DNA of 41,703 nucleotides from Planctomycetia bacterium (GTDB taxonomy: Bacteria; Planctomycetota; Planctomycetia; Pirellulales; UBA1268), in the NCBI GenBank assembly GCA_026401075.1, contig JAPLNQ010000267.1:1-41703 (forward strand), written 5' to 3'. Below, one piece after another: positions 34,546 to 41,703 of the stretch. The translations under genes were made by a program, and so were the position numbers. The notes beneath the pieces are model-generated. The model was not told where the DNA came from, ran no database searches, and was given only the letters and a program-made list of their open reading frames with translations. The stretch's first letter is position 1, and the number at the start of each line of letters is the position of its first letter.

Positions 34546-35568
34546 ATGTTTCTATCAGTCCGCCATCTTCTCGCCACATTGTTCGATCGGCTGGCGGAAC
34601 ATTCGAAACAAGAGTGGTTCGAAAAAGGTGTCGTGATGGCCGCCACAGGCGGCTTTCTCATGCATCTCCTGCTCATCGCAGCCGTCCGGAATCTGCCCGA
34701 CATGCCGCAGACGATCCTTGAAGGCGTCGACCGCAGCCCGCTTCATGCGGTCTACACGCCGTTTAGTATCATTCTCTTCTACGAGGTCATTCTCCTCGTT
34801 TTCGCGATCGCGAATTCACACACCGGAGAAATCGCCAAGCAGTATCAGATCATGTCGCTCATCATCGTACGCCGTGTCTTTAAAGACATCGGGGGCTTTG
34901 AAGACATCGACAACTGGCTGGCAGAATCTGAAGCGGCCAGCCTGGTGCTGCTCGACATGGTGGGTGCTGTGGCGATGTTCGTGATCGTGACCGTATTCAC
35001 CCTGATTCGCCAGAGGACGCCCAAGATCTCGATTGAGAGAAATCTCGACGGCTTCATCGAGCTGAAAAAAGCCGTTGCCGTGTTGCTGCTCTTCGTCCTG
35101 GTAGGACTCGCCGCACTCAATTTCGCGAGTTGGTTGCGAATCGTGCCGGCGACGGTCATCGGTCAGCCGCATCCGCCACAGAATCTTGACCTGTTCTTCT
35201 TCCCGCTCTTCTTCGAGTTCATGATTTTTTCAGACGTGTTTCTTCTGATCGTGTCACTGGCCTACTACGATCGGTATGAGTATGTCTTTCGGAACGCGGG
35301 GTTCGTCATCTCGACGGTGCTTCTCCGTGTATCCTTGTCGACACCAAAGCCTTACGATCTTGGCGTTGCGCTCGTCGCCATGGTCTATGGTGTCGTGGTT
35401 CTCGGCGTGTTTAGCTGGTTCAGTTCGATCGCCAGGCTGGAACATGGGAAAGTGGCAGGCAATACCCTGTCCGCCTTGAAAAAGAAGGACTCGCACGGTG
35501 AAATCCCGGAACGTGCCCCAATCCCAGAACGTCCCTCAATTCCAGAGCGTCCCTTAGGGGAGTCATGA
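34546..35568 (+). CDS. Polytopic membrane protein of unknown family
   Basis: Multiple hydrophobic helices; ends with a P-rich EIPERAPIPERPSIPERP repeat; 6 nt before the reductase gene. Confidence 0.75.
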   Translation: MFLSVRHLLATLFDRLAEHSKQEWFEKGVVMAATGGFLMHLLLIAAVRNLPDMPQTILEGVDRSPLHAVYTPFSIILFYEVILLVFAIANSHTGEIAKQYQIMSLIIVRRVFKDIGGFEDIDNWLAESEAASLVLLDMVGAVAMFVIVTVFTLIRQRTPKISIERNLDGFIELKKAVAVLLLFVLVGLAALNFASWLRIVPATVIGQPHPPQNLDLFFFPLFFEFMIFSDVFLLIVSLAYYDRYEYVFRNAGFVISTVLLRVSLSTPKPYDLGVALVAMVYGVVVLGVFSWFSSIARLEHGKVAGNTLSALKKKDSHGEIPERAPIPERPSIPERPLGES

Positions 35569-35574
35569 TGCACC

Positions 35575-36699
35575 ATGGCCGAATTCCCTACCCCCGCGAC
35601 GGCTTTCGGTCGGCAAAACCCGTTTGCCTCGCGCCTTCGTGAAAATCGCCGACTCAACCGACAAGGTTCGAGCAAAGACACCCGCCACATCGTCGTCGAA
35701 TTAGGGTCCTCGGGTCCGACGTACACCTGTGGCGATGCCCTCGGCGTCTTCCCGCGGAACCCCGAACCTTTGGTCCGTGAATTCATCGAAACGTTGGGCC
35801 TTGAAAACGATGCTGCCCTGCACAAAACCATAGCAACCTCTGCCGTCCTCAACCGTGTCAGGAAAAAGTTTGTTCGAGCTGTGGCGGAAAAAGCTGTGGG
35901 CCCGGCAAAGCAGAGATTCCAGGAAATCGTTGCCGACGACAAAAAGTTCGACCACTATATTTTCGACCGGGATGTGATCGATGTTCTTCGTGATGCTCCG
36001 GGAGTTCATTTTGAGCCCGCGGACATTCCCGGTCTCCTGAACACGATCGCACCGCGACTCTACTCGATCGCATCGTCACCCGATCACCGTCCCGGAGAGG
36101 CTCACATGTGTGTGGTCCTCGTCCAGTACACCTCCCACGGCCGCCAAAAACAGGGACTCGCCTCGGGTTACCTTGCTGATCTGGCCGACCAGTCGTCGGT
36201 TCCCGTTTATGTCCAACCCACCCGCCATTTTCATCTTCCGCCAGCGGACCGCGACATGATCATGGTCGGCCCGGGGACCGGTGTCGCCCCTTTTCGGGCC
36301 TTTCTCCAGCACCGTGCCATCCATGGCCATGCGGGTCGCAATTGGCTCTTTTTCGGAGATCAGCACGAGAAAACCGACTTCCTTTACGGCGATGAATTCC
36401 TGGCTGCCCAGAAATCCCGACTCCTTCACAAACTCTCCACTGCGTTTTCCCGAGATCAGGCCGAAAAAATCTATGTACAGCACCGCATGGAAGAAGAGGG
36501 TGCTGAACTCTGGCGCTGGCTGGACGAGGGTGCGTTCTTCTACGTCTGCGGCGACGCAAAGCGAATGGCCAAAGACGTTCACGCATCCTTGGTGACGATC
36601 GTTGCCAAGCATGGCGGTAAAACGCTTGATCAGGCCGACGAGTGGGTCTCGGAAACCCTCATGAAAAATGAAAAACGCTATTTGAGAGACGTCTACTGA
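35575..36699 (+). CDS. CPR/CysJ-type FAD- and NADPH-binding reductase lacking a flavodoxin domain
   Basis: RLYSIASSP (FAD), MVGPGTGVAPFRAFLQHR (NADP), FFGDQHEKTDFLYGDEF, YVCGDAKRMAKDVH, C-terminal aromatic Tyr. Confidence 0.9.
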   Translation: MAEFPTPATAFGRQNPFASRLRENRRLNRQGSSKDTRHIVVELGSSGPTYTCGDALGVFPRNPEPLVREFIETLGLENDAALHKTIATSAVLNRVRKKFVRAVAEKAVGPAKQRFQEIVADDKKFDHYIFDRDVIDVLRDAPGVHFEPADIPGLLNTIAPRLYSIASSPDHRPGEAHMCVVLVQYTSHGRQKQGLASGYLADLADQSSVPVYVQPTRHFHLPPADRDMIMVGPGTGVAPFRAFLQHRAIHGHAGRNWLFFGDQHEKTDFLYGDEFLAAQKSRLLHKLSTAFSRDQAEKIYVQHRMEEEGAELWRWLDEGAFFYVCGDAKRMAKDVHASLVTIVAKHGGKTLDQADEWVSETLMKNEKRYLRDVY

Positions 36700-36998: not shown

Positions 36999-37856
36999 AT
37001 GATTGAATGCTTCTGTTTGCTCGGGGCGGCGATGCCCGATCTGTCAGTGTTCCAATACAATGCGGTTGACAACATCTTTTCGATGACGGTCGCGACGATG
37101 GGGGCGGCCGCCCTGTTTCTGTACATGTCCCGGTCGCACGTCGATGCGGAATACCGGCCGGCTCTGCTCGTGTCGGGCATCGTGGTTTCGATCGCCTGCT
37201 ACCACTACTTCATGATCCGCCACAGCTGGCACGACGCCTACTCGCTGGTGGGCGCTGCTGGGTACAAGGGTACCGGCGCTGCCTTCAACGACTTCTATCG
37301 GTACGCCGACTGGATCCTGACGGTGCCGCTGCTGATGGTCGAACTCGTGTCCGTCCTCCGACTGCATTCGGCCAAGGCGACGAGCCTGCTGACGCGGCTT
37401 GTGATCGCGGCGGCCTTGATGATCGCGCTCGGCTATCCGGGCGAGGTGATCGCCGACCCGTCGCGGTGGTCTGAGCGAGTTATCTGGGGTGGGCTCTCGT
37501 CGATTCCATTCTTCTACATCCTCTACGTGCTCTGGACGGAACTGACGAATTCGCTCGACAGTCAGCCGCCCGCGGCCCGCAAGCTTCTTGAGGTCGCTCG
37601 GCTGGTGATTCTGCTCACCTGGGCGGTTTACCCGATCGCTTACGCGCTCGGTGGCACGCCCGATGCATTGGCCGCGAAGGCTGGGACCGCGAATGCCGCC
37701 GATGGCGTCGTTGGTGCCAATGGTGTCGTTGGCCTGCAGATTGGTTACGCGATTGCCGACATGACCGCCAAGGCGGGCTTCGGCGTGCTGATCTATCTCA
37801 TCGCCAAGGCCAAGAGCACGAAGACTGCGGCAGCTGAGGCTTACGGCGCCGCCTGA
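36999..37856 (+). CDS. Xanthorhodopsin-like proton-pumping microbial rhodopsin
   Basis: RYADWILTVPLLMVEL (D104/T108/E115), CYHYFMI (H69), ADMTAKAGFG (K258 Schiff base), IWGGLSSIPFFYILYVLW (G164); AGGTGA ribosome site upstream. Confidence 0.96.
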   Translation: MIECFCLLGAAMPDLSVFQYNAVDNIFSMTVATMGAAALFLYMSRSHVDAEYRPALLVSGIVVSIACYHYFMIRHSWHDAYSLVGAAGYKGTGAAFNDFYRYADWILTVPLLMVELVSVLRLHSAKATSLLTRLVIAAALMIALGYPGEVIADPSRWSERVIWGGLSSIPFFYILYVLWTELTNSLDSQPPAARKLLEVARLVILLTWAVYPIAYALGGTPDALAAKAGTANAADGVVGANGVVGLQIGYAIADMTAKAGFGVLIYLIAKAKSTKTAAAEAYGAA

Positions 37857-37891: not shown

Positions 37892-38851
37892 ATGCACGCG
37901 GCCTCGGTAATCTTGCTCTCTTGGGCTATTATCGGGGCCGCGTTCTTTTTTTCTCAGGCCACGGCTGGAATCACCGCCGGCGTTTTGGCGGCTCTCGTCG
38001 CGCTGATCGGCCTGCCGCACGGCGCAGCCGATCATCGCTTTGCCCGGCCGCGGCTCGAACCGGTTCTGGGCATGACGTGGCTGCCGGTGTTTCTGGTCGG
38101 GTATCTGGCGGTTGCGGTGTTGGTCGTGTGCGGCTGGTTCGTGGCGCCGACCGCCACAGTTGTGGCATTTTTTCTGGCTTCAGCCTGGCACTTCGGCCAG
38201 GAGGAGCCACGGCTCCCGGTCGGTCCGCGGGGCATGCGGAAGGTGTTCCGATTCGCACGCGGAGGGCTCGTGATCTGGACGCCGCTGGTGTTTCACGCTG
38301 GGAACGTCGCCACGATCCTCGGCCTGGCCGCGCCAGGGGGCTCGGGCCCAGCCATCGAGCAAGCCATCAGTCTGCTGACGGCTTGCTCGTGGATCATGCT
38401 GCCTGTTGCGGCGGCCGCCTGGGTTCTTCAAGGCCTGGCGGCCAGCAAAAGCACCGGGCGGAGGCGGCGGGTCTTGCTTGCCGACAACGCGTTGGTCGCG
38501 TCACTGGTGGTGCTCTTTGCCGTCACGAGTCCGCTGGTGAGCTTCCCAGTCTATTTCTGTGGCTGGCATTCGGCGCGGGGCCTTGAGCGACTCCGTCGGG
38601 AACTTGGAGAAAGCTGGCCAGAACTCGTCCGAAGCCTCGCGCCCTTGACCGTGGGGGCGATCGCTCTGGTCGGGCTGGCCGCGTGGCTCGTGCTCGGCGG
38701 GGCGGGCTGGAATGGCACGCTCATTCGGGCGACCTTTGTCGGCCTGAGCGCCGTGGCCGTGCCGCATCTGCTCCTGCACGGAGTCGCCCCGCTGTGCGAG
38801 GCGTCAGCCAGGCGGCGGACGCAGTCTCTGCAGTTGGAGGGCCCCGCATGA
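37892..38851 (+). CDS. blh: Beta-carotene 15,15'-dioxygenase, Brp/Blh family
   Basis: IGLPHGAADH, SAWHFGQEE, YFCGWHSARGL, VPHLLLH conserved His motifs in a multi-TM protein. Confidence 0.93.
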   Translation: MHAASVILLSWAIIGAAFFFSQATAGITAGVLAALVALIGLPHGAADHRFARPRLEPVLGMTWLPVFLVGYLAVAVLVVCGWFVAPTATVVAFFLASAWHFGQEEPRLPVGPRGMRKVFRFARGGLVIWTPLVFHAGNVATILGLAAPGGSGPAIEQAISLLTACSWIMLPVAAAAWVLQGLAASKSTGRRRRVLLADNALVASLVVLFAVTSPLVSFPVYFCGWHSARGLERLRRELGESWPELVRSLAPLTVGAIALVGLAAWLVLGGAGWNGTLIRATFVGLSAVAVPHLLLHGVAPLCEASARRRTQSLQLEGPA

Positions 38852-39930
38852 CATCGGCCGCGGAGTTCGACTATTCTGTCGTGGGCGGCGGCCTTCAAGG
38901 TTGTCTCTTGGCTCATGCTCTCGCCTGGCACCGGCCGGAGGCGACAGTCCTGCTTGTCGAACGGGCCGATGAACTGTGCGGCAATCACACCTGGTCATTT
39001 CACGAGACAGACGTCGCCGAGCAGGCAAGAAGCTGGTTCGACCCGCTGGTCACACACCGTTGGCCCGGCTATCGCGTCAGGTTTTCGACGCTGTCGCGGC
39101 GGGTGAACATCTCCTACGCGACGATCACGTCCGACCGCCTCCGCGAGGCGACGCTGTCGCTGGCAGGCGGAGCGGGTGGCCCGGGTCGCGCCGGACGGCT
39201 CGTCGTTCGCACAGGCGAGTCGTGTGAGATCCTCTCGCCGACCGCGGTAAGACTCGGTGGGACCACCGACGTTTCCTGCCGTGCGGTCCTCGACTGTCGC
39301 GGTCGGGCGGAGGCAGGGTCGCCGGGCGGAGCGGGCTATCAGACCTTCATCGGCCACGAGTATGAGACTGCTCAACGCTGGCCGGCATCGGAACCGACGG
39401 TCATGGATGTCCCGGCAGACCAGGCCGCGGGCTTCGAGTTTCTCTACGAACTCCCGCTCGGCCCCGATCGAGTGCTGCTCGAGTACACCCGGTTCCACGA
39501 GGAGCCGGCGTGTGACGAATCGCGGGCCGTCTCGCTGATCGCGGCTCGGCTGGCCGAGGCCGACGCAGGGTCGGCGAAGCTGATCCGGAGTGAGCGGGGG
39601 TGTCTCCCGATGCCGGAACTCGTCGCCCGGGCATGCCCGGACAGGGTCGCCGCGGAGATCGCCTCAGCAGCCGCGGAGGACCGGCTGCGGCGAGGATTCA
39701 CCCGCTTTCTGAACCGGCTGCTCTTTTGTCTGGTGAGGCCCGAAGACCGCTGGAAGATCTTCCAGCGGTTCTACCGCGTCCTGCCGGAAGAGCGAATCTC
39801 CCGGTTTTATGCCCATCGCTTCACGTTCACCGATGCGGCTCGGATCATGATCGGCTGGCCGCCCATGGGCCTGGCGCCGATTCGTTTTGCAAGGTCGTTT
39901 GTCTCACTCCCGGGGCCACTGCCGACATGA
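38848..39930 (+). CDS. crtY: Lycopene beta-cyclase
   Basis: FDYSVVGGGLQGCLLAHAL FAD motif, CGNHTWSFHETD; ATGA overlap with blh. Confidence 0.92.
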   Translation: MTSAAEFDYSVVGGGLQGCLLAHALAWHRPEATVLLVERADELCGNHTWSFHETDVAEQARSWFDPLVTHRWPGYRVRFSTLSRRVNISYATITSDRLREATLSLAGGAGGPGRAGRLVVRTGESCEILSPTAVRLGGTTDVSCRAVLDCRGRAEAGSPGGAGYQTFIGHEYETAQRWPASEPTVMDVPADQAAGFEFLYELPLGPDRVLLEYTRFHEEPACDESRAVSLIAARLAEADAGSAKLIRSERGCLPMPELVARACPDRVAAEIASAAAEDRLRRGFTRFLNRLLFCLVRPEDRWKIFQRFYRVLPEERISRFYAHRFTFTDAARIMIGWPPMGLAPIRFARSFVSLPGPLPT

Positions 39931-40925
39931 CAAAAAATCTCCTCGGCTTCGCCGGCGCGATGCACCAGACCGCCCGCACGGGGCACGGCTGGTCCAAGGC
40001 CCTCCAACTCTCCCCCGACCTTTATCCCGGCGTGGGCGGCAAGCGGCTTCGGGCCACCCTGCTCGAGGAGGCCTACGCGTTTGCCGGTGGCCGTTGCGAG
40101 GCTCCCTCGCTGATCGTCGATGCGGTCGAGCTTCTGCACGCCGGGTCGCTCGTGATCGACGACTTCGAAGACGACTCGCTCACCCGTCGCGGCCAACCGG
40201 CGCTCCATCAGGTGATCGGACCGGCCCGCGCCGTCAACGCTGGCAACTGGATGTATTTCCGCGCACTGGAGCTGGTGTCAGTCGCCTTGGACGATCCCGC
40301 CCGGTCGGCGGCGCTCGTGGGCAGGTTTATCGCGGTGGCACGGCAGTGTCACGAGGGTCAGGCGATCGACCTGGCCACGCGGATCGACGAGGTCACGCCG
40401 CGGCAGGCCCAGGTCACGGCGCTGGCGATCTCGCGTTGGAAGACCGGACGCCTCGCGTCACTGGCCGCGTGGTGTGGTGCCCAGGCCGCTGCGGGAGACT
40501 CGCAGACGCTGAAAGCCGTTGCCGCCTTCGGCTGCCGGATCGGCATCTGCCTGCAGATGAAAAACGACCTCGACGAACTCTGCGAACTGCTCGACGGTTC
40601 GGATCGGTGCGACGACCTCCGCAACCGCCGCGTCACCTGGCCCTGGGCCTGGGCCGCGAGCGAGCTTTCGGCCCGGCAGTTCACAGCCTTGCAACGCCGG
40701 CTGCGGCAGCCGGAAGAGCAGCAGGCCGAGTTTCGCCCACTCGCCAAGGATCTGCTCAACGCGACCCACCGCCGGGCGTCGGCTGCGATCAACGCCCGGC
40801 TCGACCGGGCAATCGACAGGCTCACCGCCGCGACGGGAGGAGCTCCTGAAGCCGGCCCGCTGGCCGCGATCTGCGATGCTCTACGGATGGCCATCGAGCC
40901 AACGAGGGCGGAGGCTCTTTCGTAA
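39927..40925 (+). CDS. crtE: Geranylgeranyl/polyprenyl diphosphate synthase
   Basis: GGKRLRATLLEEAY, LLHAGSLVIDDFEDDSLTRRGQPALH (first Asp-rich motif), QMKNDLDEL second motif; ATGA overlap with crtY. Confidence 0.88.
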   Translation: MTKNLLGFAGAMHQTARTGHGWSKALQLSPDLYPGVGGKRLRATLLEEAYAFAGGRCEAPSLIVDAVELLHAGSLVIDDFEDDSLTRRGQPALHQVIGPARAVNAGNWMYFRALELVSVALDDPARSAALVGRFIAVARQCHEGQAIDLATRIDEVTPRQAQVTALAISRWKTGRLASLAAWCGAQAAAGDSQTLKAVAAFGCRIGICLQMKNDLDELCELLDGSDRCDDLRNRRVTWPWAWAASELSARQFTALQRRLRQPEEQQAEFRPLAKDLLNATHRRASAAINARLDRAIDRLTAATGGAPEAGPLAAICDALRMAIEPTRAEALS

Positions 40926-40927
40926 AT

Positions 40928-41703
<776 letters not shown>

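Follow-up and report, generated by a model that had tools for sequence, protein, structure and literature searches.

The closest described systems to the rhodopsin reported here are Kin4B8, a xanthorhodopsin of freshwater Bdellovibrio (PDB 7YTB/8I2Z) that binds zeaxanthin and lutein, the xanthorhodopsin of Salinibacter ruber (SrXR; 3DDL), which binds salinixanthin, and Gloeobacter rhodopsin (GR; 6NWD), which binds echinenone, canthaxanthin and salinixanthin. The primary sequence criterion for a carotenoid site is a glycine, with a tyrosine at Kin4B8 position 204 as an additional one, and selectivity has been tied to TM6 positions 205/208/209, which read A/S/Y in Kin4B8, M/M/A in SrXR, L/M/L in GR and M/T/D in KR1 (PMC12308411). 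In Kin4B8, the S208A substitution lowers zeaxanthin binding to 2%, and β-carotene is not bound (PMC12308411). In GR, the G178W substitution blocks the carotenoid, yet the protein is more stable and pumps better, and T179G/T182G mutants bind much less carotenoid (PMC9151804).

An antenna is often read from one glycine in fenestrated rhodopsins. Green rhodopsins proposed to be proton pumps have been described from freshwater planctomycetes (Andrei et al., 2019; PMC6461901), in a text that makes no mention of carotenoids or retinal genes, and the rhodopsin analysed here is like them in phylum, habitat, green type and proposed pumping. Both these proteins and fenestrated xanthorhodopsins are thus already known, and what is new is the clade to which the present sequence belongs.

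The rhodopsin gene

The window, by which we mean the whole 41,703-nucleotide stretch of planctomycete DNA that was analysed, contains at 36999..37856 an ORF of 285 aa (on the + strand, as are all features given below) that matches PF01036 (E = 1.3e-39) and, in phmmer, 3DDL (E = 1.6e-65). Its top solved relatives, at 49-54% identity, are psXR, 3DDL (50%), GR (52%), Thermus rhodopsin (5AZD; 50%) and Kin4B8 (49%). An AlphaFold2 model (pLDDT 89) has seven long helices, with helix 5 at residues 154-186 and helix 6 at 191-218. Alignment places the proton acceptor at D104 (37308..37310), which forms with T108 and E115 (37341-37343) a DTE motif as in Kin4B8, and the second counterion and retinal lysine at D254 and K258 (37758..37772); the pump residues are the same as those of 3DDL. 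With its Bac_rhodopsin fold, retinal lysine, DTE motif and nearest relatives in SrXR, GR and Kin4B8, the ORF is by sequence a xanthorhodopsin-type rhodopsin. L112 (37332..37334) occupies the spectral-tuning position inside the helix-C motif RYADWILTVPLLMVEL, and this alignment supports the green absorption that the original prediction had read from it; taken together, the residues predict an outward light-driven proton pump of green colour.

A further rhodopsin, with about 34% identity to this one, is present as a second or sole rhodopsin in about 20 genomes of the family (G003, G004, G030, G045, G055 and others); a search of the window's own genome did not find it there.

The fenestration glycine

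The original prediction held that this rhodopsin retains the glycine needed for a carotenoid antenna, within an interval (37488-37542) that begins exactly at the G164 codon (GGT, 37488..37490). The peptide IWGGLSSIPFFYILYVLW, encoded at 37482-37535, aligns without gaps in both phmmer and MAFFT to LWGFLSTIPFVWILYILF, the xanthorhodopsin segment given in the original prediction, which is genuine 3DDL sequence. G164 accordingly falls, as predicted, at the position of SrXR G156, Kin4B8 G153 and GR G178, and the residue at the fenestration is glycine and not a bulky one. Thermus rhodopsin has the same glycine, LWGALSSIPFFYILYVLW being the nearest helix-E match.

Conservation of this position was examined across 80 related loci taken from genomes in GTDB and across 30 that belong to the window's own family. 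Glycine is present in 29/29 distinct sequences sampled from the family and in 56/59 related planctomycete sequences, in which it is encoded by GGT (23), GGC (19), GGA (11) and GGG (3), and the adjacent residue 165 varies among G, A, V, T, S, I and M; the use of four codons beside a variable neighbour indicates that mutation reaches the site and that glycine is kept. In a phylogeny from which the columns under test were left out, the state of position 164 changes four times, each time between glycine and phenylalanine or tryptophan. Phenylalanine occurs in three Pirellulaceae-like sequences (L071, L074, L076) and in Fimbriimonadales, and tryptophan in three Isosphaeraceae-like sequences (L084-L086) and in Poly30. 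Since G178W makes GR more stable and a better pump, long retention of the glycine without benefit would be odd; the retained glycine suggests a use, and as judged from these substitution patterns the opening at G164 is maintained by selection in the planctomycete clade.

A residue of the fenestration wall, S168 (37500..37502; Kin4B8 T157), is Ser or Thr in 73/78 sequences with glycine at 164, as compared with 0/13 of those with Phe or Trp. Fisher's p for this association (4e-12) was dropped as proof, there being only four independent changes, and an independent-pairs test was not significant. In the six Phe- or Trp-bearing planctomycete sequences named above, the position of Ser168 is occupied by Cys, Val or Met.

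The rest of the putative carotenoid pocket

The tyrosine of the second published criterion is also present, as Y215 (37641..37643; SrXR Y207, Kin4B8 Y204). The original prediction, that the glycine needed for an antenna is retained, holds in the sense of a necessary condition, and both published criteria are present (PMC12308411). Similarity to GR extends to the equivalents of its G178, S181, F185, P226 and I227 (PMC9151804), and an equivalent of Kin4B8 A205 is present as A216.

The polar anchors are a different matter. In Kin4B8, 3-hydroxy carotenoids are held by N188 and Y191, the partners of ring B, together with S208 and Y209; these four are replaced by V199, L202, G219 and T220, of which G219-T220 (37653..37658) lie at or adjoining the S208/Y209 anchors and differ from the residues of Kin4B8, KR1 and SrXR. 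The alignment at Kin4B8 209 is less sure, as sequences differ in the length of the loop that follows TM6, which is longer here than in Kin4B8. G219 is kept across the whole family of this rhodopsin. At TM6 205/208/209 the protein therefore reads A216, G219 and T220. Rhodopsins of the 3-hydroxy type have polar residues at 208/209 (S/Y in Kin4B8, T/D in KR1, T/E in EinA29G6), where this one has G219 followed by T220, which is polar and less surely aligned; those of the 4-keto type have bulky hydrophobic residues at 205/208 (M/M in SrXR, L/M in GR), where it has A216 and G219. The predicted pocket thus fits neither the hydroxy nor the keto type. Unlike SrXR, whose hydrophobic M/M/A stand at 208/211/212 in its own numbering, it has A/G/T; unlike GR, it has G165 for T179 and S168 for T182; and unlike 5AZD, it lacks the T/W found there at 208/209. 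Conservation at the known groove positions does not exceed that at other TM5/TM6 positions (p = 0.63). A carotenoid ring is predicted to fit into the opening.

The retinal operon

Downstream of the rhodopsin gene lie blh (37892..38851), encoding a retinal-making β-carotene 15,15'-dioxygenase (PF15461, E 2.4e-48; TIGR03753 over cut-off), crtY (38848..39930), a lycopene β-cyclase gene (TIGR01789 over cut-off), a crtE-type polyprenyl (GGPP) synthase gene (39927..40925; PF00348, E 8.8e-38) and the N-terminal half of crtI (40928..41703; TIGR02734 positions 1-238), which is cut by the contig end. The blh/crtY and crtY/crtE junctions are stop-start overlaps, and the starts of crtY and crtE are inferred from the overlap ATGs. 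A 2598 b contig of the same genome (C202) begins about 20 residues further into crtI than the window contig (C68) ends, and carries the rest of crtI (TIGR02734 258-497), crtB and then a gene on the opposite strand. The two contigs are accordingly probably neighbours, and relatives show the same gene order on single contigs; this order, rho-blh-crtY-crtE-crtI-crtB, holds in about 40 planctomycete loci for which enough flanking sequence was available.

From their assignments, crtE, crtB, crtI and crtY would lead to β-carotene and blh from there to retinal, and the cluster ends at these products, with no hydroxylase or ketolase gene within it. The original prediction had taken carotenoid genes in cis as making an antenna plausible. 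The genes are indeed there (rho-blh-crtY-crtE-crtI), and the argument built on them is weakened, as their products are β-carotene and retinal only; it is weakened further by the failure of Kin4B8 to bind β-carotene (PMC12308411), by the searches described below, which found no CrtZ and no clear CrtW, and by the replaced polar anchors. The presence of these genes in cis gives the antenna no support.

Two genes upstream of that of the rhodopsin were also noted. Directly upstream is one for a CysJ-like flavin reductase without the flavodoxin part (35575-36699), which is likewise upstream in two other loci (L031, L068), and before it one for a 340-aa all-helical membrane protein (34546-35568), for which searches of Pfam, the PDB and known folds gave no match. 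Among 73 family genomes, 26 have both the 340-aa protein and a xanthorhodopsin gene, 5 the rhodopsin only, 8 the 340-aa protein alone and 34 have neither (Fisher p 5.5e-8, without correction for kinship). In Phycisphaerae (L089), Bdellovibrio (L092) and Oligoflexia (L107), a homologue is encoded no more than 10 kb from a xanthorhodopsin gene. The 340-aa protein is possibly an uncharacterised partner of rhodopsin phototrophy.

Search for a xanthophyll pathway

A search of the genome for crtZ and crtW had been proposed as a check on the antenna, and its outcome is unfavourable. No PF04116 (CrtZ family) match was found in the window's genome, in a search whose controls were positive; the MAG is 92.8% complete, and a gene may be missing from the assembly. 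With a CrtZ query sequence not drawn from a database record, the Oligoflexia control (L107) alone matched among 28 xanthorhodopsin-bearing genomes; 26/26 planctomycete genomes in this set, of unstated completeness, were negative, including that of the cultured Rubripirellula obstinata (L054), whose rhodopsin is fenestrated. A CrtW query of the same kind gave no clear match in 73 family genomes, with one weak partial match (E 7e-5, 84 aa) in another genus. Clear homologues were recovered with these queries near rhodopsins in L107, L092 and L110. Weak PF04116 matches in relatives (190-220 aa), by eye without the CrtZ histidine pattern, were not counted, and the strong ones look to be of sterol-desaturase type.

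The window's genome encodes five PF00487 proteins, none of them a ketolase by NCBIfam: two are DesA-like desaturases, one is weakly DesB-like, one weakly CrtR-like and one without assignment. The CrtR-like protein, on contig C294, reaches 26.9 bits where the cut-off is 475, and its neighbours are unrelated genes. A single P450 is encoded on contig C121. Neither a CrtZ-type hydroxylase nor a CrtW-type ketolase was thus found in this 92.8% complete MAG; the lack of a ketolase match sets it apart from the SrXR system, and a retinal operon without crtZ from that of Kin4B8. By known enzymes, it seems, neither 3-hydroxy nor 4-keto β-carotenoids are made in this cell.

Discussion

The reading that we favour, and consider probable, is that of a green xanthorhodopsin-type pump that obtains retinal from the neighbouring operon and has an opening kept by selection, with any antenna either scavenged or made by an unrecognised enzyme. 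The rhodopsin would absorb green light and pump protons, its retinal being supplied by Blh cleavage of the β-carotene made through crtE, crtB, crtI and crtY, and G164 would leave a side opening beside the β-ionone ring of the retinal. As no CrtZ/CrtW route was recognised, an antenna carotenoid would have to come from algae or cyanobacteria or from an enzyme not recognised as such. An antenna is possible, and we put the chance that some carotenoid fills the site in nature at slightly short of even.

The opening might instead be empty or filled with lipid, an inherited xanthorhodopsin trait kept for reasons of the retinal pocket. The dearth of xanthophyll genes in this genome and its relatives, the replaced anchors, the ordinary conservation of the groove and the occurrence of the same glycine in Thermus rhodopsin all agree with this, and we regard it as a serious contender, albeit one that is rather less than an even prospect; it sits poorly with a glycine kept across many synonymous changes while Phe and Trp arise elsewhere, and with the greater stability and better pumping of GR G178W without carotenoid (PMC9151804), which would lead one to expect more frequent loss of an opening that serves no purpose. 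Uptake of lutein or zeaxanthin from algae or cyanobacteria and its loading onto the rhodopsin would be in keeping with the presence of both published sequence criteria (PMC12308411), with the failure to find CrtZ and with the record titles of many related MAGs, which point to lake samples. Against it stand the Gly and Thr at the equivalents of S208/Y209, the S208A substitution costing Kin4B8 98% of its zeaxanthin binding (PMC12308411), and no uptake system was identified. Scavenging by itself seems somewhat unlikely.

An unrecognised route to a hydroxylated or keto carotenoid within the cell, through a PF00487 protein or the P450 on C121, is improbable: the CrtR-like match of the C294 protein and the existence of the P450 speak for it, but the CrtR score is far under the cut-off, the gene adjoins unrelated ones and the conserved rhodopsin cluster holds no such gene. 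The operon does make β-carotene, and this could in principle be the antenna in a pocket that has lost its polar anchors, the anchor positions being V, L, G, T or similar throughout the clade. Kin4B8, however, does not bind β-carotene (PMC12308411), and Blh would consume it. We consider this reading very improbable on its own. To our knowledge, β-carotene has no precedent as a rhodopsin antenna.

Our favoured reading, of a selected opening served by operon-derived retinal, leaves as the unusual feature what appears to be a carotenoid opening retained across a clade without the canonical xanthophyll pathway. The bolder proposal, that the clade keeps this opening with neither its own xanthophyll pathway nor the known anchors and uses a scavenged, unknown or unmodified β-carotene antenna in an undescribed binding mode, we hold to be doubtful. 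In these planctomycetes the glycine is separated from the antenna-making genes in many genomes, one cultured species included, which makes the clade a good test both of the glycine alone as a predictor of an antenna and of carotenoid borrowing. If bacteria do borrow carotenoids, then xanthophyll genes in the host should not be made a condition when antenna-assisted phototrophy in lakes is counted.

A second set of carotenoid genes was also noted. On contig C203 (L020), an HpnE-like frame comes after a pair of SQS_PSY-family genes, and contig C195 carries (L019) two crtI-family desaturase genes together with those for a glycosyltransferase and an acyltransferase-like protein. A squalene route to C30 carotenoids has been reported from planctomycetes (cited in PMC12078418), and the gene set on these two contigs looks like such a route, the products of which would be expected to be acyclic.
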